64,000 nt of DNA from a virus. The stretch is from positions 1-64,000 of the IMG/VR virus record IMGVR_UViG_3300022752_005671. One strand, given 5' to 3'. This document shows positions 1-41,746 of the stretch, piece after piece. Both the position numbers and the translations under genes were made by a program. Each line of letters begins with the position of its first letter. Positions within the stretch are counted from its first letter, which is position 1. The notes beneath the pieces are model-generated. The model was not told where the DNA came from. It was given only the letters and a program-made list of their open reading frames with translations, and searched no databases.

Positions 1-306
1 GACGGTGCCCTCGTCTCCTCCACGAACGGACCCTCACCCTACCCTTGCCCAGAAGTCCACGCAGAAGCCCGACTATGCAACAAACTAACCCCCGGCTCAA
101 CAGTCTGGGTCGCACGCGTCCGACACGACGGAACTCTAGGAATGGCTCGCCCGTGCCACACCTGCCAAAAACGCCTCCGCTCGGCCGGCGTCACCAAGGT
201 CATCTACACGATCTCTGACGTAGAACACGGCGTCCTCGACCTCGGGCGCGACATCGAACGCGTCAGGCCCTCACGCGGGGCCCGTTTCAACAGAGCCATG
301 GCCTAG
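1..306 (+). CDS. zinc-dependent cytidine/dCMP-deaminase-like protein, 3' partial
   Basis: The + strand is open from base 1 to the TAG at 304-306, giving the last 101 residues of a protein that begins outside the window. It contains an HAE triad (residues 20-22 of the fragment) and, 31 residues further on, PCHTC (PCxxC). These are the two halves of the zinc site of the cytidine deaminase superfamily, with the HAE glutamate as proton shuttle. The following KRLRSAGVTKVIYT also fits the family (helix then strand). Such enzymes deaminate cytosine-type nucleotides or bases, but the substrate cannot be told here. Codons are strongly C/G-ending, unlike the AT-rich phage genes downstream, which suggests recent acquisition. 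A GC-rich foldback follows the stop. Confidence 0.72.
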   Translation, partial: DGALVSSTNGPSPYPCPEVHAEARLCNKLTPGSTVWVARVRHDGTLGMARPCHTCQKRLRSAGVTKVIYTISDVEHGVLDLGRDIERVRPSRGARFNRAMA

Positions 307-430
307 CACGGGCCCCCCATCCACACGGCCCAAACAGGCCCCTAAAAGGGCCCCCTTTCGGGCCCCTAAAATGGGGCCGGGGCCCCGCCCCCTGGAGAGC
401 AACTTGTGTGGGGCCTTTTAGGGCACCTGG
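307..430. repeat. GC-rich self-complementary intergenic element
   Basis: Non-coding stretch built from repeated GGCCCC/GGGGCC blocks. GGCCCC-TAAAAT-GGGGCC (361-378) is a perfect 6-bp hairpin. The block at 340-354 (CCCTAAAAGG, one bulged G, CCCC) pairs with 410-423, giving 14 bp around it. The two foldings are partly nested. It directly follows the deaminase stop and could be a strong transcription barrier or a REP-like element. No function is established. Confidence 0.5.
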
Positions 431-519
431 GGGCGCTATACCCTTCCGCGCATCTCGAGAACTTTTAGGATCGAAACGGACCTTCTCCTGACTCGCCATA
501 AAGCTTTGTGCCCTTGTTG

Positions 520-542
520 AGCGACATGATCGGTCGCTTTTT
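520..542 (+). terminator. Rho-independent terminator
   Basis: AGCGAC and GTCGCT form a 6-bp stem around a 7-base loop (526-532), followed by TTTTT (538-542). It lies upstream of the small gene at 567 and downstream of the deaminase. The stem is short, so strength is uncertain. Confidence 0.5.
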
Positions 543-566
543 GCTCGTGAAGAAATACTTTTTGTC

Positions 567-773
567 ATGAATTCGCAAAAAATCAATAGGGTCATCAGAG
601 AAAGCATCCGTCGAGCAGTGAAGAGAGAGCTACGCCGTGAATTGAGTCGAATGAGAATCATCGTGGGAACCGCACATGACGAAGAGTTGATCGATGACAT
701 TGAAGAATCTCGCGACACAGAGCCGAATCTCATTAGGGATCCCACCGATTCCTGGAGCGACGAAAATTCCTGA
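567..773 (+). CDS. hypothetical protein, basic N-terminus and acidic C-terminus
   Basis: A 68-residue frame. Its first half is an Arg/Lys-rich predicted helix (RRAVKRELRRELSR) and its second half is acidic (HDEELIDDIEESRD). I do not recognise the family; the charge pattern suggests nucleic-acid binding or a small accessory protein. The ATG has only a weak purine-rich stretch upstream (GAAGAAA). A TTTTTGC/GCAAAAA inverted repeat (538-544/575-581) brackets the start. An alternative + frame at 694-882 continues with plausible composition, so a frameshifted longer gene cannot be excluded. Confidence 0.4.
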   Translation: MNSQKINRVIRESIRRAVKRELRRELSRMRIIVGTAHDEELIDDIEESRDTEPNLIRDPTDSWSDENS

Positions 774-937
774 AGCCGCTGTTGGCTCTCGAGAATCTCG
801 GGAAAATTTTCGCATCGAAACGGCCGCGGTTCTATGTGTCTCAGATAATTCCAGATATATCGATGAAGTTTCCAGCATCTGATTAATTAAAACATTTTTA
901 TGAATGCATCTTGTATGATCGTAGGTGGAATGGTGAC

Positions 938-1135
938 ATGAAGTTGATTGAAGGCGTCGACTATTACATCGATCATGAGACCGGGAGGCTCGTGTGGACA
1001 GAGCGCCGCTTGTTGTTACGAGGATATTGTTGCCATTCCAGGTGTCGACATTGTCCATGGGGGTGTGGGCCCGAAGATGCATTGAACACGTCGAAAAAAG
1101 AATCATATAATGATGATTCAGGTAGGAGAGATTAG
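938..1135 (+). CDS. DUF5522-family small cysteine-rich protein
   Basis: 65 residues from the ATG at 938 (a TTG at 911 would add nine). The core GVDYYI..ETGRLVWTERRLLLRGYCC followed by CRHCPWG matches the DUF5522 pattern: YY, short strand, 'RGYCC', then CRHCPY/W. The four clustered cysteines suggest a metal site or disulfides. The family's function is unknown, and members are usually chromosomal and bacterial. The malate synthase promoter lies inside the 3' end of this gene, and the stop (1133-1135) falls just before the malate synthase start. The extra C-terminal tail (about residues 45-65) is not part of the usual short family core. Confidence 0.65.
   Translation: MKLIEGVDYYIDHETGRLVWTERRLLLRGYCCHSRCRHCPWGCGPEDALNTSKKESYNDDSGRRD
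1082..1111 (+). promoter_or_regulatory. sigma70-like promoter of malate synthase
   Basis: TTGAAC (1082-1087), an 18-base spacer and a perfect TATAAT (1106-1111). The predicted start of transcription, near 1118, leaves a short leader with a good ribosome binding site before the GTG at 1137. It lies inside the end of the DUF5522 gene, which implies malate synthase can be transcribed on its own by the host polymerase. Confidence 0.6.
1121..1128 (+). promoter_or_regulatory. ribosome binding site that selects GTG 1137
   Basis: GGTAGGAG ends 8 bases before GTG 1137. The in-frame ATGs at 1110 and 1113 lie upstream of this site, at or before the predicted transcription start, so the GTG is the better start. 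Confidence 0.55.
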
Positions 1136-1136
1136 T

Positions 1137-2684
1137 GTGATTCCGATAAGTTCCATTGTAGACCAGGGTGTGACGAAGTTTGTCGATGATTTTGTTCGAA
1201 CTTTTCGAAAAGACCACGAGACAGTTCTCGCAGTGCGAGACGACAGTCGCCATGATCCTCGAGGGCTTCAGGCGATAGTCGATCTACCGATTCCTTGGGC
1301 GATGAAGGATCCCCTGTGGAAGATCGCTCCCGTACCGACGGACTTGATCGACCGTAGAGTCGAGATCACCGGGCCGGCCATCGATCCGAAGATGGCGATC
1401 AATGCTCTGAACAGCGGGGCGTCTGGGTACATGGTCGACGGAGAAGACTCCTTGTCGCCGACGTGGGAGAACGTGCTGCGCACCCATTCTACATTAACAG
1501 GAATTTCTAGACGAACCCTTGAGTTTAACGTCGGAGGAAGCGTGCATCGAATGGCCAAGAAGACCGCGGTCCTTCATTACCGTCCTCGAGGGCTTCATAT
1601 GTTTGAGAAGCACTGGCTCGTTGATGGGCAGCCTGCCCCTGCGGCTCTCGTCGATGCCGGATTGTTCCTGTATTGGAATGCCGGTGAATTGTTGTCGCGT
1701 GGAACGGGGCCATATATGTACCTTCCGAAGCTTGAGACGGAATTTGATGCCAGGTTCTGGTCCAGGGCTTTGAAGTGGGCAGAGACAGCATTGGGGATTC
1801 CTGAAAATTCCGTGCGGGTGACGGTGTTGATCGAGACGTTGCCGGCTTTGATTCGAGCAGAGAGCATCCTGTGGTCATTACGTGAGCGCGTGACTGGATT
1901 GAACGTTGGTCGATGGGATTACGTGTTGTCGTTGATTCGCAACATGCACGCAGATCATGAGTACGTATTGCCGGATCGATCAGCCATGTCGATGGATGAG
2001 TCTCAGTTGGCTGAGTATGCTCGATGGGTTGTGAGAACGGCGCATCGCCGCGGTGCACATGCGATCGGCGGAATGGCCGCCCAAGTTCCGAGCAGGAAAG
2101 ATCCTGTTGCAGCGCAACGTGCGATCGATGCAGTGAGACGAGACAAATTGCGCGAGGTGGCGGCGGGGCACGATGGCACGTGGGTCGCTCATCCGGATCT
2201 TGTGCCTGTTGCGATGGATGTTTTTGATGTTGAGCTCGATGGTGCCCTCGAGCAGAGATGGAGCATCCATGGCTCGACAGAGTTGAATTTGAATTTGATC
2301 GTTGTTCCGATGTCAGGGCCTCGAACGGAGAGTGGATTGCGTGACGCCGTGAGGGTGACGTTGGTGTACGTTGATGCATGGTTGAGGGGAAACGGTTGCG
2401 TAGCGATGGATGGAAAGATGGAGGACGCTGCGACGGCAGAGATTAGTCGGGCATTGTTGTGGCAGTGGGTGGCTCGAGGGGCATTATTGGATGATGGAAC
2501 GAGGGTTGACGCAAATCGAGTGATAGGGGTGATACGGGGTGAGGCAGCAGCGCTTGCCGCTGCGGGAACCGAGCCCCGGGTAGAGACGATTGGATTATTA
2601 GAGAGATCAATTCTTGTTAAGCGATTGCCTGATCACATTTTGACTTCGGCATACGAAATTTTAGTGAATAAAAATTTTAGATAA
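1137..2684 (+). CDS. aceB: malate synthase A (glyoxylate cycle)
   Basis: Condenses glyoxylate with acetyl-CoA to give malate, the second step of the glyoxylate bypass. With GTG 1137 the product is 515 residues, close to the usual length of about 530. Family landmarks occur in order: VEITGPAIDPKMAINALNSG (about 75-94), EDSLSPTWEN, the RPRGLHMFEKH segment with the catalytic arginine (about 149), YLPKLE, the signature GLNVGRWDY (about 254-262), and MEDAATAEISR with the catalytic Asp (about 430). One oddity: the signature usually reads KxH or REH before GLN, and here it is RERVTGLN, so that His is Arg. All other core motifs look intact. No isocitrate lyase is visible in the window. Codon use is more GC-rich than in the tail and glycan genes, in line with transfer from a host. 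Confidence 0.93.
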   Translation: MIPISSIVDQGVTKFVDDFVRTFRKDHETVLAVRDDSRHDPRGLQAIVDLPIPWAMKDPLWKIAPVPTDLIDRRVEITGPAIDPKMAINALNSGASGYMVDGEDSLSPTWENVLRTHSTLTGISRRTLEFNVGGSVHRMAKKTAVLHYRPRGLHMFEKHWLVDGQPAPAALVDAGLFLYWNAGELLSRGTGPYMYLPKLETEFDARFWSRALKWAETALGIPENSVRVTVLIETLPALIRAESILWSLRERVTGLNVGRWDYVLSLIRNMHADHEYVLPDRSAMSMDESQLAEYARWVVRTAHRRGAHAIGGMAAQVPSRKDPVAAQRAIDAVRRDKLREVAAGHDGTWVAHPDLVPVAMDVFDVELDGALEQRWSIHGSTELNLNLIVVPMSGPRTESGLRDAVRVTLVYVDAWLRGNGCVAMDGKMEDAATAEISRALLWQWVARGALLDDGTRVDANRVIGVIRGEAAALAAAGTEPRVETIGLLERSILVKRLPDHILTSAYEILVNKNFR

Positions 2685-2696
2685 ATTCTCCGATAA

Positions 2697-2723
2697 TTAT
2701 CCATCGTAATTTCCGATGGATAA
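2697..2723 (+). promoter_or_regulatory. 10-bp hairpin enclosing a start codon
   Basis: TTATCCATCG (2697-2706) and CGATGGATAA (2714-2723) are perfectly complementary across a 7-base loop. The ATG at 2716 lies in the 3' arm. No Shine-Dalgarno sequence is visible. In mRNA this would hide the start codon. It could instead be a terminator-like stem after malate synthase, but there is no T-run. Confidence 0.5.
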
Positions 2724-2988
2724 AGACGACACCGTCAAGCCTGGAGATATAGTGATTTTAGATGAGACGAAGCTTCCTGGCGACGTCGAGGCTATTCCTG
2801 TTTGGAATTTAATTCACAACAATTTAATTGACCGTAAAGATCCAGCGTACATTCAAGTTGATTATGTCTTTTATAAAGACATCGTTTTAGTTTTATCTCA
2901 TCCTTTGAAAGATGGATCTGTCAACGTCTTAACTAGTCGAGGAAAGATCGGTATTTCATGGTTCGGTCATTTGCGAAAGTTTTTTTGA
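2716..2988 (+). CDS. hypothetical protein, small beta-rich
   Basis: 90 residues, not recognised. The composition looks coding: VKPGDIVILDETKLPGD resembles the opening strand of an SH3-like or KOW-like barrel, and IGISWFGHLRKFF ends it. An in-frame stop at 2707-2709 means ATG 2716 must be the start, yet there is no ribosome binding site and the ATG sits inside a 10-bp hairpin. It lies 31 bases after malate synthase and 35 bases before the vWA lipoprotein. Confidence 0.55.
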   Translation: MDKDDTVKPGDIVILDETKLPGDVEAIPVWNLIHNNLIDRKDPAYIQVDYVFYKDIVLVLSHPLKDGSVNVLTSRGKIGISWFGHLRKFF

Positions 2989-3000
2989 TAAGTTCATCTG

Positions 3001-3009
3001 TGATATAAT
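3001..3009 (+). promoter_or_regulatory. extended -10 promoter element before the vWA lipoprotein
   Basis: TGATATAAT is a TGn-TATAAT extended -10 box, 15 bases before the ATG at 3024. A TTGATA (2985-2990) is too close (13 bases) to be an ideal -35. The leader would be very short. Confidence 0.35.
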
Positions 3010-3023
3010 TATTCTTAGGTGAT

Positions 3024-4346
3024 ATGAGAAAAACTCCGCACAATATTGGAAGAGGCGGGTTGATTGGCATAGCATTGGCGACTGTTTTGGGTGCCTGTGC
3101 TGCCGCCGCGACCCTTTTGGATGCAGAAAAATCAGAGACAAATCTTTATGATTTGACGGATAGTGGCTCTGGAAAATCTTGTGTAGAATCCGTCGCGTCG
3201 AAGGTTTCTTCATCACGCCCTGTTGATATTATCTTCGTGATTGACAATTCTGGGTCGATGGTCGAAGAGCTCGATGCGATAAGAAACAATATCAACGATA
3301 ATTTCGCCAACGTGATGAACGCCGCTGGTTTGGATTATCGCGTGATCATGATTGTAAAACATGGTCCGCCCGGCACGTATTATGGAACGACGTGTATAGA
3401 AGCTCCATTAAGCACTATCCCCAAAGGAGGATGCGCGACGATAGGAGATTCGCCGCCCGGGAACAATCCTGGAAAGTTTTATCACTATAGCTATGACGTT
3501 CAAAGTAATGATTCTCCTTGCGTTATTTTAGATACGCTGTTTAATGTTAACTATCGTCCAGATGAATATGGACTTGCGCCTGATGGGTGGATCAAATGGT
3601 TGAGACCATCTGCGTTTAAGGTATTCATCGAAGTCACTGATGACGCGCCCGGCTGTTGGTGGTATCCTGATCAAAATGATACTTCAAAGAAGAAAATATT
3701 GAATGATTTTCAATCTTCTTTAGGCGGTCAAGTTTTTGCGATGGAGTTTGATAAGTTGTTGACGAAGCTAGCTCCTGAGCAATTTGGAATCCAAGAGGAC
3801 AGAAATTACGTTTTTTATAGCATTACTGGATTGAAAGAAAAGCCTGCTGCAGTTGATGAAGATTTTGGGGCTTTGATCGATCCGAATGGAAAACCTGATG
3901 ATCCTTTCTACCCTGGAGAAGAGGTTGTTAGTAACATTTGTTCAACAGCTGTTACTGCAGGACATGGTTATCAATCATTGAGTAAACTCACCGGTGGATT
4001 GCGTTTCCCTATCTGCCAAGCAGAGAAATTTGACGTAATTTTTGAGAAGATTGCAGAATCTATCGATTCGATAACAACGACGATCTGCACGCTTGAGATT
4101 CCCGACGCAGGTGATGAAGGCCTCGTCGATATTTCAACTGTGAAATTAAGAGTTGATGATGTCGGGGTTGATTCAAGTTACTTTACTATCGTAGAAGATG
4201 AAAAATCCTGTTCAGGAGCATCAAATGAATATTATATTGATCAAGTAGGTAATTATGTTATTCTATGTCCTGAAACGTGCAAGGCGGTTAAATCAGATTC
4301 AGATGACGTAAAGTTAACTGCTGGTTGTTTACCTCACACAAAATGA
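3024..4346 (+). CDS. lipoprotein with von Willebrand factor A domain
   Basis: 440 residues. The N-terminus is a lipoprotein signal peptide: a charged start, a hydrophobic stretch (about 12-24), then lipobox LGAC with Cys25 as the predicted lipidated residue. After a Ser/Asp-rich linker, PVDIIFVIDNSGSMVEEL (about 66-83) is a vWA MIDAS motif (DxSxS) that binds a divalent cation for protein contacts. Several Cys residues suggest disulfides in an exported protein. The arrangement resembles vWA lipoproteins of myxobacteria more than any phage structural protein. Possible roles are altering the host surface or superinfection exclusion. It precedes the HAD gene by 4 bases, so the two are probably co-transcribed. 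Confidence 0.8.
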   Translation: MRKTPHNIGRGGLIGIALATVLGACAAAATLLDAEKSETNLYDLTDSGSGKSCVESVASKVSSSRPVDIIFVIDNSGSMVEELDAIRNNINDNFANVMNAAGLDYRVIMIVKHGPPGTYYGTTCIEAPLSTIPKGGCATIGDSPPGNNPGKFYHYSYDVQSNDSPCVILDTLFNVNYRPDEYGLAPDGWIKWLRPSAFKVFIEVTDDAPGCWWYPDQNDTSKKKILNDFQSSLGGQVFAMEFDKLLTKLAPEQFGIQEDRNYVFYSITGLKEKPAAVDEDFGALIDPNGKPDDPFYPGEEVVSNICSTAVTAGHGYQSLSKLTGGLRFPICQAEKFDVIFEKIAESIDSITTTICTLEIPDAGDEGLVDISTVKLRVDDVGVDSSYFTIVEDEKSCSGASNEYYIDQVGNYVILCPETCKAVKSDSDDVKLTAGCLPHTK

Positions 4347-4350
4347 TCTA

Positions 4351-4896
4351 ATGAATTTAAAAGATAAAAAAAATCTCGTTTCAGAGCTTTCATTAAAATC
4401 TAGTGAGATTCACGTTTTTGATTTTGATGACACGATCGTGAAGACTGGATCTATGATTCATGTGACGGCTGCAGATGGAGAAAAGTTTTCTTTGACTCCG
4501 CGGCAGTATGCCATGTACGCTCCTGATCCTGGAGATTTGTTCGATTTTTCTGATTTTGAAGGATTGATTGATCCTCAACCTGTCAACAACACGTTATTAA
4601 AGCTTAAGATGGCAGTTCGTGACGTCGGTGTTCAAAATGTTTTTATATTAACTGCTCGTGGGAATCCTGTTCCGGTGAGAGATTTTTTACTCGATCAAGG
4701 TGTACCTAACATAAGAATATTTGCTGTTGGTTCTAGTAATCCTCAAGCTAAAGCTGACGTGATTGAAGATGAAGTTTTATCTCGAAAGATCAAACGAGTT
4801 TATTTCTATGACGATTCAGTGAAGAACATAATGGCTGTTCGAGCATTGAGACAAGATTTGCCTAACGTAGAAATTGTTGCTGTAAAAGTTGGATAA
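4351..4896 (+). CDS. HAD-superfamily phosphatase
   Basis: 181 residues. DFDDT (about 24-28) is HAD motif I with the nucleophile Asp and general acid/base Asp. ILTARG (about 98-103) is motif II (hydrophobic strand ending in Thr), and KRVYFYDDSVKN (about 148-159) is the motif IV DD pair. There is no large cap domain. Phage HADs of this size include polynucleotide 3'-phosphatase-like and 5'-nucleotidase-like enzymes, so a role in end repair beside UvsE and ligase is possible. The substrate cannot be told. Confidence 0.8.
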   Translation: MNLKDKKNLVSELSLKSSEIHVFDFDDTIVKTGSMIHVTAADGEKFSLTPRQYAMYAPDPGDLFDFSDFEGLIDPQPVNNTLLKLKMAVRDVGVQNVFILTARGNPVPVRDFLLDQGVPNIRIFAVGSSNPQAKADVIEDEVLSRKIKRVYFYDDSVKNIMAVRALRQDLPNVEIVAVKVG

Positions 4897-4963
4897 TCTC
4901 GTTTAATAAAAATTGCATTACATTGAGTGCAAAGTTTTTATTTTTAGTTGTAGAGTATGAAAC

Positions 4964-5902
4964 ATGTCCTTAGGTATTTGTTGTCATTGGCTTGACGAAC
5001 GTACGATACAGAGAACAGGCAGAGTTGAAGTGTACAATGCAATGGATGAGCGTACTTTGCAGCTCGGTCGTTACAGAACAGGAAAGTATTCCTCTGAGTT
5101 GATCGCTTCTACTTATGAACACAATGTTGAGGCCCTCGTAAAAATGTTGCCTCGGATTGTGAAATCCGGCATCAAATTGTTCAGAATTTCTTCTGCAATG
5201 TTTCCATTGGCTGATCAAGTTGATGTTTCATTGTGGAAAGGAAATGAAAATCTCTCGAGAATTCTTGCCCGTGCCGGGCAAATCATCAAGGAAAATGGTT
5301 TGCGCGTGACGACGCATCCTGGACAATTTTGTGTGTTGTCTTCTGACTCTGAATCAGTTGTGAAAAAAGCGATAACTGAACTTGAAATTCATGCATGGAT
5401 GTTCGATACAATGGGTCTTGAAAGTTCTGCAAGATATGCCATCAACATTCATGGTGGAAAATCAGATCGATCAGAACAATTGGCCCGCCGGATCGATGAA
5501 CTTCCTGACAACATTCGATGCAGATTGACTCTTGAAAATGATGAAACCGCATACTCTGTCGTGGATCTACTTCGGGTGCATCAAATGACGGGCGTGCCTG
5601 TCGTGTTCGACACTCATCATCATGTTTTCAATGAAGATTCTTTGTCAATGGAAGAAGCCATGCATGCAACGATGGAAACGTGGCGCAATGGTGTTTTGCC
5701 TCTTCAACACATCAGCAACACGGAACCTCATTTGGTGAACGGAAATTTTGTTGATCGAAGAAAACACAGCAATATGATTCATTACGTTCCAGATTGCCAA
5801 CTGAAATTTCTTCGTGAAAAAATTATTGATGTTGAAGTAGAAGCGAAGCAGAAGAACATCGCTGTCTTTGACATGTCAAAAAAGTTTGATATTCCTTTGT
5901 GA
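4964..5902 (+). CDS. uvsE: UV DNA damage endonuclease (UvsE/UVDE)
   Basis: 312 residues, the usual bacterial UvsE length. This TIM-barrel, metal-dependent enzyme nicks DNA 5' of pyrimidine dimers and other distortions and so starts an alternative excision repair. Family motifs occur in order: LGICCHW at the start, FRISSAMFPL (about 73-82), THPGQFCVLSS (117-127), INIHGGKSDR (160-169), LENDE (190-194), FDTHHHVFN (215-223) and QHISNTEP (248-255). These supply the His/Glu/Asp metal ligands. The ATG at 4964 gives the conserved N-terminus. The preceding gap (4897-4963) holds a weak TTGCA/TGCAA stem followed by a T-rich run. Confidence 0.93.
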   Translation: MSLGICCHWLDERTIQRTGRVEVYNAMDERTLQLGRYRTGKYSSELIASTYEHNVEALVKMLPRIVKSGIKLFRISSAMFPLADQVDVSLWKGNENLSRILARAGQIIKENGLRVTTHPGQFCVLSSDSESVVKKAITELEIHAWMFDTMGLESSARYAINIHGGKSDRSEQLARRIDELPDNIRCRLTLENDETAYSVVDLLRVHQMTGVPVVFDTHHHVFNEDSLSMEEAMHATMETWRNGVLPLQHISNTEPHLVNGNFVDRRKHSNMIHYVPDCQLKFLREKIIDVEVEAKQKNIAVFDMSKKFDIPL

Positions 5903-5981
5903 ATAAAAAATTTTCGTGCAGAGCAAAGAAAAAAGAAAGTTTGATAAAACATTAGAAGGAGGCCGAAAGGCAAAAAACAAT

Positions 5982-6317
5982 ATGGGTAAGAACAAGAAGA
6001 AGAATAAGAAGAGCGACGTTGAGATGATTGACAATGAAGTTGAAATGTTTGCTGATGTCGGGTATGAGGATGAAAGTCCTGTTCCTTATCCCGAAAAGTT
6101 TGATAAGGAAGTTTTGATTTCATTGAATGATGATGAGCTTCACAAGCTTGGTCGATCTCTGGACGATTCTATCTTGAGAGTATCTAAGATGAATCTTAAT
6201 CCTTATCCATGGGAGATTGAGTTGTGTTATGTCCAACAAGAGATGCAACTTCGTTCAACGAGGCGCGCGGCTCACGCAGATTGGATCAGCAAGCTTCCTC
6301 CTGTGGAGATGGAGTGA
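5982..6317 (+). CDS. hypothetical protein with Lys-rich N-terminus
   Basis: 111 residues from ATG 5982; a GTG at 5916 in the same frame would add 22 more Lys/Arg-rich residues. The N-terminus is a poly-basic stretch (GKNKKKNKK). The rest is acidic to neutral and helical, ending PPVEME. Not recognised. AAGGAGG lies rather far upstream (about 19 bases), so the start is uncertain. The stop is one base before the sigma factor ATG (6319), so the two are translated together. Confidence 0.6.
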
Positions 6318-6318
6318 G

Positions 6319-7158
6319 ATGGAATCAACCACAGTTCAGCAGACAAAGCCATTAAAGTTTAAAAAGTCTTCACTAGGTGAAGATCATAATGGTATGTCAA
6401 ATTATTTGACATCTTTGAAGAAATATCCTCAACTGTCTCATGAAGACATGATGGAGTTATTCAAACAATATGAGCTTGGAGGTGGTAAAGCAATTAGTGC
6501 GAAGAAGAAGCTTGTTGAATCCAATCTTCGATTGGTCGTTTATATTGCAAAACAATACAAGGGATATAACATTCCGCTTGAAGACTTGATTCAAGAGGGA
6601 AATCTTGGTTTGATGAAGTCAATCGAAAAGTTTGACTGGACCAAAGGATTTCGTTTCTCTACTTATGCTACTTGGTGGGTGAAGCAAGCCATCGGGCAGT
6701 ATATTCTAAAACGTAAGAGAATCATCCGTATGTCGGCTCATGCAGTTACCGCGCAGAAAAAAATGGCTGCGGCTGCAGAAGAATACAGGCAGATGATGGG
6801 TTGTGATCCGACTGCTGAAGAACTGAAAGAAATGACAGGAACTTCAGACGCGGTATATAATGCAACCACGTTTGCGGGTCGAAACATTATTTCTCTTGAT
6901 CAACCCATGTCGTCAGAGCCAGGAGGAGATACGCTTGAAGACAAGCTTGTCGACGACAAGAATGTTTCACCATTAGAGAAAATTTCATCTGAGCAATTGA
7001 TGCTTATTGCAAGATCTGTGTTGGAACAATTGTCTCCAAAAGAAGCTGCAATTTTGAGGCTTCGATTCGGATTGGTTGATGACGTTTTAGAAGACCCTTC
7101 ATATGATATTACGAACGAAGATGTTGGAATGATTGCATCTGGGTGCGGTTTAAAATGA
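6319..7158 (+). CDS. sigma-70 family RNA polymerase sigma factor lacking region 4.2
   Basis: 279 residues from ATG 6319. [35 protein letters not shown] and [14 protein letters not shown] are regions 2.1-2.4 (core binding and -10 recognition). [12 protein letters not shown] through the VYNATT segment is region 3, and [16 protein letters not shown] leads to region 4.1 ([15 protein letters not shown]). The protein then stops after [15 protein letters not shown], so the region 4.2 helix-turn-helix that reads the -35 box is missing. No other frame restores it. The stop overlaps the next gene (ATGA). Two genes downstream is a separate HTH protein. Likely directs polymerase to phage promoters. Confidence 0.9.
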
Positions 7159-7406
7159 TGATTAAAATCCTTTTAGGATTATCAGTGGCACAAATTATTC
7201 TTAATTTTTTGCAATATCTTTCAATTAAAAGATTAGTTTTAGAACTAGAAGAAGATTCTTCAAATGAAGATGAATCAAATCAAAATGAAATGGTTCAAAT
7301 AGAAAGTAATTTGAACACGAGATTGAGAGAAATTCAAACGACACAATTTTCGCCGCGAGTGTCTAGAATTCCAATTCGTTTGGTAAAACCACAAGGAGAT
7401 GATTGA
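7155..7406 (+). CDS. small membrane-anchored protein
   Basis: About 83 residues. ATG 7155 overlaps the sigma stop as ATGA (ATG 7158 is also possible). Residues about 3-23 ([20 protein letters not shown]) form one transmembrane helix; the remainder is acidic, then Gln/Arg-rich. No family recognised. Coupled to the sigma factor and followed by the HTH gene. The topology (short N-terminus, long soluble tail) would suit a cytoplasmic or periplasmic tether. Confidence 0.6.
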
Positions 7407-7407
7407 A

Positions 7408-7692
7408 ATGATGAGAAAAGGAAAAAAGTTTGAATCTGGATATGCTACAGTCGATGATGGCGTAAATTATAGAGATATTGCCGATACAATGACTGAAATT
7501 GGATATACAATGAATCATTCCTCTGCAAGGAACTATGTTTTGCGTGTGATGAAAAAATTTGCAGAAGCCATTGTAGATCAATATGGGATCAAGATGTCAG
7601 AAGAAGGATTGGATAGAGTAGCAAAATCTCCAATGTTTCAAAGCGGTATTGCAGAGGTTCTTCAAGACATTGAGTACGCAAGGAAGTTTTGA
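7408..7692 (+). CDS. small helix-turn-helix protein resembling sigma region 4
   Basis: 94 residues from ATG 7408, chosen because AAGGAG (7393-7398) lies 9 bases upstream; it directly abuts the ATG at 7399. The segment NYRDIADTMTEIGYTMNHSS followed by ARNYVLRVMKKFAEAI has the form of a sigma-70 region 4 / HTH unit ('IA..m...G..mn...ARn'). It lies two genes after a sigma factor that lacks exactly this part. Plausible roles are a detached region 4, a transcription co-factor or a DNA-binding regulator. The HTH assignment is by pattern only. Confidence 0.6.
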   Translation: MMRKGKKFESGYATVDDGVNYRDIADTMTEIGYTMNHSSARNYVLRVMKKFAEAIVDQYGIKMSEEGLDRVAKSPMFQSGIAEVLQDIEYARKF

Positions 7693-7693
7693 A

Positions 7694-8131
7694 ATGAAGG
7701 CCACAAAATATCAGATTAAATCTCAAATTAGGTTAGAAGACCTTCTTCGTCGAAGAAAGACGAACTTGAATCAATTCATTAAGGATCGAGGAATTACAAC
7801 GTATGAAGGCCTTGATTCCCTTTGTAAGAGATTAGGCGTTTTGACGCCGAATCAAGATTCTTTTTTTCAGTGCATTGAAAAATACGTTTCTAATCCATCT
7901 TCTGGTGTTGTCGTAATTCCTCCGCCTCTTGTAATTCATGAATCGACCGGAGAACCTGAACTTGTAGAAGAAGATTCTTTTGAAGATTTCAAACCTCAAA
8001 TTTCAGTAACAGATGAAGCTGAAGGCGGGGAAATTTCGGTAGTTTTAAAAGAAGCTGCGATCAACACAAGTAAGCAGTTGACAAAGAAACAAAAGAAACA
8101 ATTTAAAAAGCAGCAACAAGAAACTAACTGA
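7694..8131 (+). CDS. hypothetical protein
   Basis: 145 residues from ATG 7694, one base after the previous stop. The N-terminal part (IRLEDLLRRRKTNLNQFIKD..GITTYEGLDSLCKRLGV) looks like a small helical domain seen in phage virion-associated or regulatory proteins. The C-terminus is Lys/Gln-rich (LTKKQKKQFKKQQQ). No function assigned. It belongs to the sigma-HTH operon by spacing. Confidence 0.55.
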   Translation: MKATKYQIKSQIRLEDLLRRRKTNLNQFIKDRGITTYEGLDSLCKRLGVLTPNQDSFFQCIEKYVSNPSSGVVVIPPPLVIHESTGEPELVEEDSFEDFKPQISVTDEAEGGEISVVLKEAAINTSKQLTKKQKKQFKKQQQETN

Positions 8132-8146
8132 GTATTAGGAGGGGAA

Positions 8147-8443
8147 ATGAAGAGAGTCATTGTTTATGATGTAGAGCAAAAAAAACCTGAGAGTGCAACA
8201 AAACATTCTGAAAAAATTCAAGCGAATAACACGAAGCAGGAATCTTGGGAAAAAGAAAAGCGCATCAGGGCAATGAAAACAATAGAGAATGCTTCAGTTT
8301 TAAGTGGAATTGTTAAATCGATTGAAACGCTTAAGTTAAATGATCCCAACGAAGATGGGCAAGTTATTAAAGAAGCAGTAGAGAAAATTTCTTCTATTGT
8401 TGAAGAGATGAGAAAAGATTTTAAAAAAGACTATTGGGACTGA
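8147..8443 (+). CDS. hypothetical coiled-coil protein
   Basis: 98 residues with a strong ribosome binding site (AGGAGGGG, about 6 bases before the ATG). Charged and mostly helical: a Lys/Glu-rich middle and a C-terminal amphipathic stretch (IKEAVEKISSIVEEMRKDFKK) suited to a coiled coil. Not recognised. Last gene of the + strand regulatory run, meeting the GT25 gene tail to tail. Confidence 0.55.
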   Translation: MKRVIVYDVEQKKPESATKHSEKIQANNTKQESWEKEKRIRAMKTIENASVLSGIVKSIETLKLNDPNEDGQVIKEAVEKISSIVEEMRKDFKKDYWD

Positions 8444-8457
8444 TTCTTTTCATCTCT

Positions 8458-9222
8458 CTATTTTGGAAGTAGTCTGACGTTGTCTTCTTTTTTCTCTTCA
8501 AGCAATGATTTTAGATCTTCTTCAACAAGATCTGCATGATTTTTTGCGCTAGCTCTAATCCCCCAAAAAGCAACATTGGATTGATATATTTCTTGGTAAG
8601 CTACAGATGGTCGTATTAGAAACCCTCTTCCAGACTTAAATTCTTCATATAGCATGGTGTCAACTGGCATTATGCAGCATGAAAAGATTGATAATAGTCT
8701 TGCAGCGTGGACAGGATTGACTAGGTAAGCATGGGCTCCATAAGGAACCCAATCAATTTTGTTATATAACTTGTAAGATTCATGTTCTAATTTTGGTCGT
8801 TCTTTACTATATGAGCCCAAAGAAATGATGCTCCAATCGGAAGGAGCGTTTAATAAAGCCCACATAACCGCAAGTCTTGGGTTGAAAAGAAACCTGCAAT
8901 CGTCTTCAATGATTAACCACGCTTTACAATTCATGTATTGTTTATTACTGGTTAACATCATGTATCTGATTGCTGCTGCATGAGAAAGAGAACATGATAT
9001 CTCTGCGGTTGACATGCTCGTCGCGGGTAAAGAGATGTTCTCTACTGCATGAAGTTTTACGTGATGTATGTTCCACGCAGATAAATGTGTGATTAAATCT
9101 TCATATCGAGCTTGATCTTTTTCAAGATTGATGATAACCGCCGGCGGGACTAGAAAGTTTCCCTCGCGCAGAGGAGAAGTAGCCTCGAGCATATTACGCT
9201 CTAAATTTTTTAATTCTGACAT
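8458..9222 (-). CDS. glycosyltransferase family 25-like
   Basis: 254 residues. PPAVIINLEKDQARYEDL (about 26-43) is the family-25 opening ('vINL..s..R'). EISCSLSHAAAIRYMM (about 75-90) is the conserved 'E.gC.lSH' block, and AWLIIEDDCRF (about 102-112) holds the EDD-type motif that binds the metal and sugar nucleotide. Family members add galactose or glucose to LPS cores or to hydroxylysine. It is the only minus-strand gene in the first 11 kb and lies far from the main glycan cluster, which suggests separate acquisition. Divergent from the ligase across 91 AT-rich bases. Confidence 0.8.
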   Translation of the reverse strand: MSELKNLERNMLEATSPLREGNFLVPPAVIINLEKDQARYEDLITHLSAWNIHHVKLHAVENISLPATSMSTAEISCSLSHAAAIRYMMLTSNKQYMNCKAWLIIEDDCRFLFNPRLAVMWALLNAPSDWSIISLGSYSKERPKLEHESYKLYNKIDWVPYGAHAYLVNPVHAARLLSIFSCCIMPVDTMLYEEFKSGRGFLIRPSVAYQEIYQSNVAFWGIRASAKNHADLVEEDLKSLLEEKKEDNVRLLPK

Positions 9223-9313
9223 GTCTTTGTTGAATATACGTTTCGATTAAAATATTGTTAATTTTCATTTGTTCTTAGTGCAAGTTTGTCATTGCTTGTG
9301 GTAGATTATATCC

Positions 9314-10648
9314 ATGCAAACAGTCATCGACATTTTGGAGAGGCTTGAGTCCGACAACTCTCGTTTGTTCAAGGAAGAACTTCTCGAATCGCAAGTTGAC
9401 AACGGTCTTCTTAAGAGAGTTTTTGTCGCCGTAGGAGATCCGTACCTTAACTTCTACGTGAACAAATTCAAGATGCCTTCCGCGGAAGGCATGGGTCACG
9501 ATGACATGGTATTGCAACAATTCCTTGATGAAGTCTACGAAAATCTGCCGACGCGAAAGAAAACAGGCAACTCCGCTAAAGAATTCGTAGAATATCTTTT
9601 TAAGGGTATGACGCATCTGCAACAGAAGTGGTGTCAGCGAATCCTTCTCAAAAACCTTCGTTGCGGTGTACAGGCAACGACAGTCAACAAGATTTGGCCG
9701 GGAGCAATTACGGGATTTTCTGTTCAGCTCGCCGAATCTTTGAAAACTCATTATGAAAACGGAAGCGGAATCATCATAGATGATGATGTCAGCTATCCTA
9801 TCAGAATTGAACCAAAGCTCGATGGTCTAAGATGCGTTGCGGTGAAACACAACGGTGAAGTGACGATGTTCACGAGGAATGGCACTGTTCTAGAGACCTT
9901 ACCTCGGATCAAGTTGCTGCTCGAGTCGGCTCCTTGGGATAACTTCGTCCTCGATGGCGAAATCATGGGTGCAGACTGGAACGAGTCTGCGTCGGTCGTC
10001 ATGTCGCACAAGAAAAATAAGGATGATTCTAACATGATCTTTCACGTCTTCGATGCCATGTGTTTTGAAGACTGGCGTGACCAAGAGAATTTCCTTCCCT
10101 TGAAAGATCGAGTAGAACTTGTTCAAGAGTTGGTGTCTCAGGTTTCAAGTTCTTCCATTGTTCAAGTTCAAGGTAGAACTGTTAATGATCAGGAAGAGCT
10201 TCTTGCAATGTATCTTCGTGACACTGACGACGGGTATGAAGGTGTCATGATCAAGGATCTAGATGCTCATTATGTCTTTAAGAGGACTTCGAATATTCGG
10301 AAAATGAAACCAGTGGCGACATATGAAGGAGTTATCGTGGGTCATTATGAAGGGCGTCGAGGTTCGAAACGAGAGGGGTTATGGGGCGGGTTCGATGTTG
10401 TTCTACCAAATGGTGTGACGACCCGCGTTGGGAGCGGTTTCACAGACAAGCTGAAGGCAGAGATCAACTTGAATCCTGATTCATGGATCGGTAAGATTGT
10501 TGAAATGGAAGGCCAACCTGATCCGCTGACTGGTGATGGTCTGACGAAAGACGGAAAGGTTCGATTTCCTGTTTATATTCGTGAAAGAGATCCAAGAGAT
10601 GTTGACCTCCGTGTCGTCGAAAGTTTCGAAAAATTAAAGAACCAATGA
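9314..10648 (+). CDS. ATP-dependent DNA ligase
   Basis: 444 residues, T4 gp30-like size. Seals nicks through an enzyme-AMP intermediate. EPKLDGLR (166-173) is motif I with Lys168 as the adenylated residue, and FVLDGEIMG (about 211-219) is motif III. MIFHVFDAM lies between, DDGYEGVMIKD (305-315) is motif IV, and the NIRKMKP segment carries motif V lysines. Residues about 334-430 form the OB-fold domain (EGVIVGHYEGRRG..). The N-terminal 130 residues are helical, as in the T4 enzyme. Probably serves replication and UvsE-started repair. Confidence 0.93.
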   Translation: MQTVIDILERLESDNSRLFKEELLESQVDNGLLKRVFVAVGDPYLNFYVNKFKMPSAEGMGHDDMVLQQFLDEVYENLPTRKKTGNSAKEFVEYLFKGMTHLQQKWCQRILLKNLRCGVQATTVNKIWPGAITGFSVQLAESLKTHYENGSGIIIDDDVSYPIRIEPKLDGLRCVAVKHNGEVTMFTRNGTVLETLPRIKLLLESAPWDNFVLDGEIMGADWNESASVVMSHKKNKDDSNMIFHVFDAMCFEDWRDQENFLPLKDRVELVQELVSQVSSSSIVQVQGRTVNDQEELLAMYLRDTDDGYEGVMIKDLDAHYVFKRTSNIRKMKPVATYEGVIVGHYEGRRGSKREGLWGGFDVVLPNGVTTRVGSGFTDKLKAEINLNPDSWIGKIVEMEGQPDPLTGDGLTKDGKVRFPVYIRERDPRDVDLRVVESFEKLKNQ

Positions 10649-41443: not shown

Positions 41444-41746
41444 TTATTTCCTATCTTTTTCTTCTTGTTTTCCAAATGGAATTACAATTTTATTTGCAAT
41501 TAATAGCATAGCTTCTCTAGCATTTTTTACATCTTTTATCATCATTGTAACTACAGGATCATCAAATAAAACTGGTGATTTTAAATGTTTTGATACATCT
41601 TGATAAGATTCATCAATCATATCTAAAGACTCTTCGACTTGAGCTCCAATTTCATCAATTTTCTCCATTAACTTTAATGATTTTTTCGTCATTATAAACA
41701 AAGCGAATAAAGAAATGATGTTCGTTATTGTTAAAATGTATATCAT
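41444..41746 (-). CDS. small membrane protein
   Basis: 100 residues. One N-terminal transmembrane helix (IYILTITNIISLFALFIMT), then a long helix with coiled-coil character (LKLMEKIDEIGAQVEESLDM) and DPVVTMMIKDVKNAREAMLLIANKIV. It overlaps the upstream glycosyltransferase by 4 bases and lies 5 bases before the late sigma gene. Similar membrane-anchored proteins beside gp55-type genes occur in other environmental myoviruses. Function unknown. Confidence 0.6.
   Translation of the reverse strand: MIYILTITNIISLFALFIMTKKSLKLMEKIDEIGAQVEESLDMIDESYQDVSKHLKSPVLFDDPVVTMMIKDVKNAREAMLLIANKIVIPFGKQEEKDRK

Follow-up and report, generated by a model that had tools for sequence, protein, structure and literature searches.

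The malate synthase gene at the left end of the window probably (probability about 0.8) serves a lineage of large T4-type phages as an auxiliary metabolic gene, encoding a predicted-active malate synthase A (MSA) that would be used in the infected cell. The window is the whole 64-kb stretch of DNA that we analyzed; it is the first part of a 187,069-bp viral record that may be incomplete. The enzyme is ordinary and its place is less ordinary: the gene is a divergent version of a known phage auxiliary metabolic gene. Coordinates of the features discussed below are collected in Table 1.

Table 1. Features of the malate synthase region. Positions are those of the window, except for the last line, which refers to sister phage L159.
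Feature	Position	Strand	Evidence and remarks
DUF5522 gene (PF17653), 65 aa	938..1135	+	Pfam, 4.5e-18; stop 1 nt from malate synthase GTG
-35-like hexamer TTGAAC	1082..1087	+	Within DUF5522 gene; 18-nt spacer to TATAAT
-10-like hexamer TATAAT	1106..1111	+	Within DUF5522 gene
AGGAG ribosome-binding site	1124..1128	+	Sequence; 8 nt upstream of GTG
Malate synthase A (MSA) gene	1137..2684	+	GTG start, TAA stop, 515 aa; Pfam, TIGR01344, AlphaFold, and PDB match
Small conserved gene, 90 aa	2716..2988	+	Right flank of cargo slot; 61% identity in L002, 57% in L159 (malate synthase absent)
440-aa protein	3024..4346	+	N-terminal signal-like stretch, VWA-like DxSxS motif; neighbor in L002 and L159; no Pfam match
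HAD/polynucleotide-kinase-like phosphatase, 181 aa	4351..4896	+	phrog_415, 6.8e-5; synteny
UV damage endonuclease UvdE	4964..5902	+	Pfam, 1e-57; phrog_8420
RNA polymerase sigma factor, phage-encoded	6217..7158	+	Regions 2 and 3; Sigma70_r2, 1.2e-22; phrog_351, 1.5e-54
409-aa ORF in malate synthase slot of sister phage	L159:4597-5826	minus	No Pfam match; unrelated to malate synthase

The protein matched the Pfam domains MS_TIM-barrel (E value, 4.6e-79) and MS_C (8.5e-25), far over the cut-offs, and its domains and length are typical of MSA (PF01274 plus PF20659; ~510 to 530 aa). The NCBIfam model TIGR01344 (malate_syn_A) covered residues 11 to 509 with a score of 515 bits, which is below the equivalog cut-off of 594.5. 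Hence, we regard the protein as a divergent member of MSA and not as a separate family. Its closest solved relatives by sequence are the MSAs of Bacillus and Escherichia coli, and among PDB structures, an AlphaFold model of the protein (mean pLDDT, 92.6) was most similar to E. coli MSA (3cuz; TM-score, 0.92). PHROGs holds no family for malate synthase. An ATG in L002, a relative described below, aligns with the GTG at 1137, which favors this start over the longer frame beginning with the ATG at 1110. The dN/dS ratio was ~0.11 between the window and L002 and 0.14 to 0.23 in the remaining measurable pairs, with dS near saturation; the low ratio against L002 fits purifying selection on the gene.

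We scanned IMG/VR with a four-member alignment and identified 56 viral contigs that encode malate synthase. Six of these (L002, L003, L004, L016, L017, and L057) belong with the window. L057 is a copy of the L016 region, so that orthologues are found at five distinct other viral loci, with 58 to 74% identity and mostly the same neighbors; the remaining 50 contigs have 39 to 47% identity. The sequence-only reading had proposed a phylogeny against bacterial AceB. In the resulting tree of 121 sequences, the six distinct window-type sequences formed a separate phage clade with 100% support; its stem is long, at 1.34 changes per site. The 38 other viral sequences lay apart from this clade and mostly grouped with enterobacterial AceB. 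The best cellular identity was ~50% among the matches listed; on this and on the support for the clade, we rejected a recent transfer from a host. An approximately unbiased (AU) test did not reject a single clade of all viral sequences (p = 0.55). We therefore leave the number of acquisitions at one or more and do not claim two independent acquisitions by phages. As a separate observation, L003, a relative with both malate synthase and isocitrate lyase (ICL), carries an adenylosuccinate synthetase gene (L003:14452-15444; PF00709, 1.1e-80).

Residues R151, E233, D261, E429, and D430 were invariant in the alignment in all clade members that span them, and R151, E233, D261, and D430 were also kept in the other viral sequences and in nearly all cellular ones. 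From MSA and MSG structures, we take the roles at these sites to be those of the catalytic Arg (RPRG), the Mg-binding Glu (IET) and Asp (GRWDY), and the catalytic Asp (MEDAAT). The protein also retained 106 of 123 positions that are near-invariant across 77 cellular enzymes. Together with the Pfam domains, the span of the TIGR01344 match, and the fold, these residues bear out the earlier description of a full-length MSA with intact catalytic residues. The reading frame, from the GTG at 1137 to the stop at 2684, encodes 515 aa.

That description had also singled out one signature residue as changed from His to Arg. This change is at residue 251, which is Arg in all six clade members and His in 70 of the 77 cellular sequences; outside the clade, Arg occupies this position in two of the 77 cellular sequences and one of the 38 other viral ones. 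Because it is fixed in the whole clade and rare elsewhere, we interpret H251R as a lineage trait rather than a lesion. What we take to be the PROSITE-type malate synthase signature, [KR]-[DENQ]-H-x2-G-L-N-x-G-x-W-D-Y-[LIVM]-F, is unmatched, with H replaced by R in six of six clade members and the final F by L (F264L) in four of six. Further clade-specific changes are M241A, the fixed G116T, and, next to the catalytic MEDAAT loop, the likewise fixed L427K/R/Q. Given these substitutions and the long stem, the kinetics or specificity of the enzyme may differ from those of its relatives.

A T4-type major capsid protein of the gp23 family (PF07068, 4e-65; 105.8 to 107.4 kb) and a large terminase (phrog_2, 1.9e-50; 96.4 to 98.0 kb) identify the record as viral, and we assign it to the T4-type tailed phages (Caudoviricetes). 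It further encodes an SbcC-like protein, ribonucleotide reductase, and tail/structural proteins. The most similar capsids among phage records, from Flavobacterium, Microcystis, and other phages, share at most ~47% identity and are not decisive for a host call. Several other features of the record were seen in passing. A long co-oriented block on the minus strand (window positions 41444 to 63992) includes, among the genes scanned, a glycosyltransferase and a NolO/NodU-type carbamoyltransferase, suggesting phage-encoded surface-sugar chemistry. The phage also has an IMP-dehydrogenase-like gene (L010:6639-7718), and its gene for DNA polymerase III alpha is split into two parts (L010:10693-15489; record positions 170693 to 175489). 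The first polymerase part has an N-intein-like tail (NPHR/CLNPETLVKT), the second has a C-intein-like start ending in LLTHN/SGAPD, and between them lies a free-standing endonuclease-like gene with a weak, sub-cut-off match to Phage_endo_I. Metagenomes are known to contain similar split-intein arrangements, called "fractured genes."

The GC content of the malate synthase gene is 0.54, above that of most of its neighbors (~0.38 to 0.45 around it), and the gene sits at the end of a contig that starts within a dCMP-deaminase-like gene. Both observations would fit an assembly chimera, in which a phage contig had gained a bacterial fragment at its left end. However, L002, which comes from a separate metagenome, keeps the gene order of window positions 1 to 9946: deaminase-like, DUF5522, malate synthase (74% identity), 90-aa gene, VWA-like, HAD-like, UvdE, sigma factor, and ligase. 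The order in L016/L057 and L004, from other metagenomes, is near-identical. Moreover, cellular sequences reach at most ~50% identity among the matches listed, against the 74% of L002. The sequence-only reading had called the gene phage-borne and had named a chimeric join near 1 to 2.7 kb as what would overturn this. Synteny in other metagenomes effectively excludes a chimera, and the gene can be taken as phage-borne.

We next consider the site that the gene occupies. Related records were fetched via the sigma factor and the ligase; most are short, and the lack of a gene carries weight only in those that span the interval. Malate synthase was present in 2 of the 38 related records searched, namely, the known G005 and one aceBA record, and was not found in the other 36, mostly short, records. 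L159 does cover the interval. It has the deaminase gene, DUF5522, a 409-aa minus-strand ORF, the 90-aa gene, and then the usual order. Since the slot is replaced in L159 and both flanks are kept, malate synthase is accessory cargo at a defined variable site.

The sequence-only reading had given the gene its own sigma70 promoter. The two hexamers, the N18 spacer, and the ribosome-binding site are indeed present, and TTGAAC-N18-TATAAT matches a sigma70 host-type promoter at 10 of 12 positions. However, this match lies wholly within the DUF5522 coding sequence, and sigma70-like matches in the region occur at chance frequency (21 seen versus 19.9 ± 4.4 expected). The -35 TTGAAC was absent from all relatives compared, and L002 has neither a -35 nor a -10 box ahead of malate synthase. 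On these grounds, a dedicated sigma70 promoter is no more than a candidate. The -10 element alone has some comparative support: the window, L016, and L003, but not L002 or L017 (3 of 5 clade members), have an exact TATAAT no more than 60 nt from the malate synthase start, with a chance of ~1 to 3% for each of the three. In the window genome, TATAAT is seen upstream of genes 27 times versus 9.9 expected, and other AT-rich words are enriched too. The earlier suggestion that host polymerase alone could transcribe the gene is unsupported; the phage encodes its own sigma factor, 4 kb downstream, and recognition by host polymerase alone is hence only a candidate reading. DUF5522 also lies upstream of malate synthase in L002, L016, and L017 and upstream of the replaced slot in L159. 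The gap between the two genes is ~47 nt in L002, ~48 nt in L016, and ~314 nt in L017; therefore, read-through from DUF5522 would not be obligatory. We rejected GTGTAC as a phage-specific -35 box for the window genome, where its matches did not exceed those in shuffled sequence. GTGTAC is found 16 to 19 nt ahead of TATAAT or TGTAAT in L003:8878, L016:2588, and L017:2856, as a possible phage promoter element.

We searched the rest of the record for ICL, as the sequence-only reading had advised. Neither a family search nor a protein search found ICL in the 187-kb record; the same family search was positive in controls and in 46 of the 50 other malate-synthase-carrying viral records. The claim that the enzyme would draw carbon through the glyoxylate bypass is therefore incomplete. 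In 48 of 53 newly fetched viral malate synthase loci, ICL shares the strand of malate synthase, and in 45 of these 48 the two genes are no more than 300 nt apart. Such an adjacent same-strand ICL, by which we define an aceBA operon, is absent for the window malate synthase. Within the reach of the contigs, ICL is also absent from L002, L016, L017, L057, and L004, of which L016, L057, and L004 are short.

How the enzyme would obtain glyoxylate can be read in two ways, neither of which we rate at even odds. It is possible that the phage, like other marine phages, encodes the complete glyoxylate shunt (both aceB and aceA), with ICL outside the 187-kb contig. The L003 contig (G002) has ICL 9 kb from malate synthase, and in the relative G078, ICL lies ahead of the dCMP-deaminase/sigma/ligase block. 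In both, ICL lies 4 to 6 kb past the deaminase gene, on the side missing from the window contig. Since that contig starts inside the deaminase gene, ICL could lie directly beyond the record, and chiefly for this reason the label stand-alone must be used with caution for this malate synthase. Other relatives are 298 and 324 kb long, so that the 187-kb record may be only part of a genome. Against this, the 7 kb left of the L002 deaminase gene is without ICL, as is the 30.5-kb G005, which spans malate synthase through deaminase, and so are L016, L057, and L004, though these are short. Tentatively, a phage-specific, long-diverged malate synthase lineage may instead work without a viral ICL on host glyoxylate (from glycolate, purine, or the host shunt), with large T4-type phages exchanging the gene as a cargo module at one fixed site. 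If so, this metabolic strategy would differ from that of the aceBA operons found elsewhere in phages.

It is unlikely that the enzyme has drifted to another acyl-CoA/keto-acid substrate or removes glyoxylate outside the shunt. The stem of 1.34 changes per site, the fixed changes L427K/R/Q by the catalytic loop and H251R within the signature, and the lack of a neighboring ICL are consistent with such drift. However, all of the presumed Mg-, glyoxylate-, and acetyl-CoA-binding residues that we checked are kept, and the closest fold is that of MSA.

We therefore favor an auxiliary metabolic gene whose product would, in infected cells, make (S)-malate and CoA from glyoxylate and acetyl-CoA. The gene occupies a variable cargo slot in the early/replication region, between DUF5522 and the 90-aa gene and near UvdE, the sigma factor, and DNA ligase, and would be expressed during infection. 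Because a viral ICL was not found in the available record, glyoxylate would be host-derived, supplied by host isocitrate lyase, glycolate, or purine breakdown. The predicted benefit is a flow of C4 acids (malate, oxaloacetate, and aspartate) into nucleotide and energy supply.

The earlier reading knew of no well-studied phage with this gene. The novelty that this implied is reduced by two studies. Hurwitz et al. (2013; PMC4053976), working with the Pacific Ocean Virome, listed ICL and MSA (aceA/aceB) among photic-zone viral genes, and Nishimura et al. (2017; PMC5332604) described an aceBA operon in a T4-like viral genome of 179 kb. Malate synthase has also been noted in Mimiviridae (PMC9270025). 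What stands is that no genuine isolated phage in our copy of INPHARED carries malate synthase. Four INPHARED matches were rejected as phage precedents: two are 500-kb Salmonella whole-genome shotgun contigs, and two are unannotated records of <1.7 kb. The latter (OR845746.1 and OR851757.1), labelled phages, match bacterial-type malate synthase and are probably host DNA. We conclude that phage-borne malate synthase is already known and that the unusual feature here is a divergent type without a neighboring ICL.

Phage malate synthase is thus no single curiosity: a common aceBA type exists alongside a separate divergent type without a neighboring aceA, and the latter has persisted long enough to form a clade of its own. 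The slot swap offers a natural with/without comparison for the role of the gene in infection, and the clade provides a defined sequence set for enzyme assays.

Compared with bacterial MSA (E. coli AceB, 3cuz; Bacillus anthracis, 3cux; TIGR01344), the phage enzyme is alike in length, fold (TM-score, 0.92), and catalytic residues. It differs in having ~37 to 40% identity to the enterobacterial enzymes, in H251R, which is fixed in the phage clade, and in its score below the TIGR01344 equivalog cut-off. The aceA/aceB families of the Pacific Ocean Virome (PMC4053976) likewise include a viral-fraction MSA proposed as an auxiliary metabolic gene; they are virome gene families, without the genome context or clade structure given here. 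A further parallel is TARA_ERS478052_N000008 (PMC5332604), which is also a large T4-like environmental phage genome with MSA and surface-sugar genes. By its published description, that genome has aceB and aceA in an operon, whereas the gene described here belongs to a separate divergent clade and lies, with no neighboring aceA, behind DUF5522 in a variable slot.
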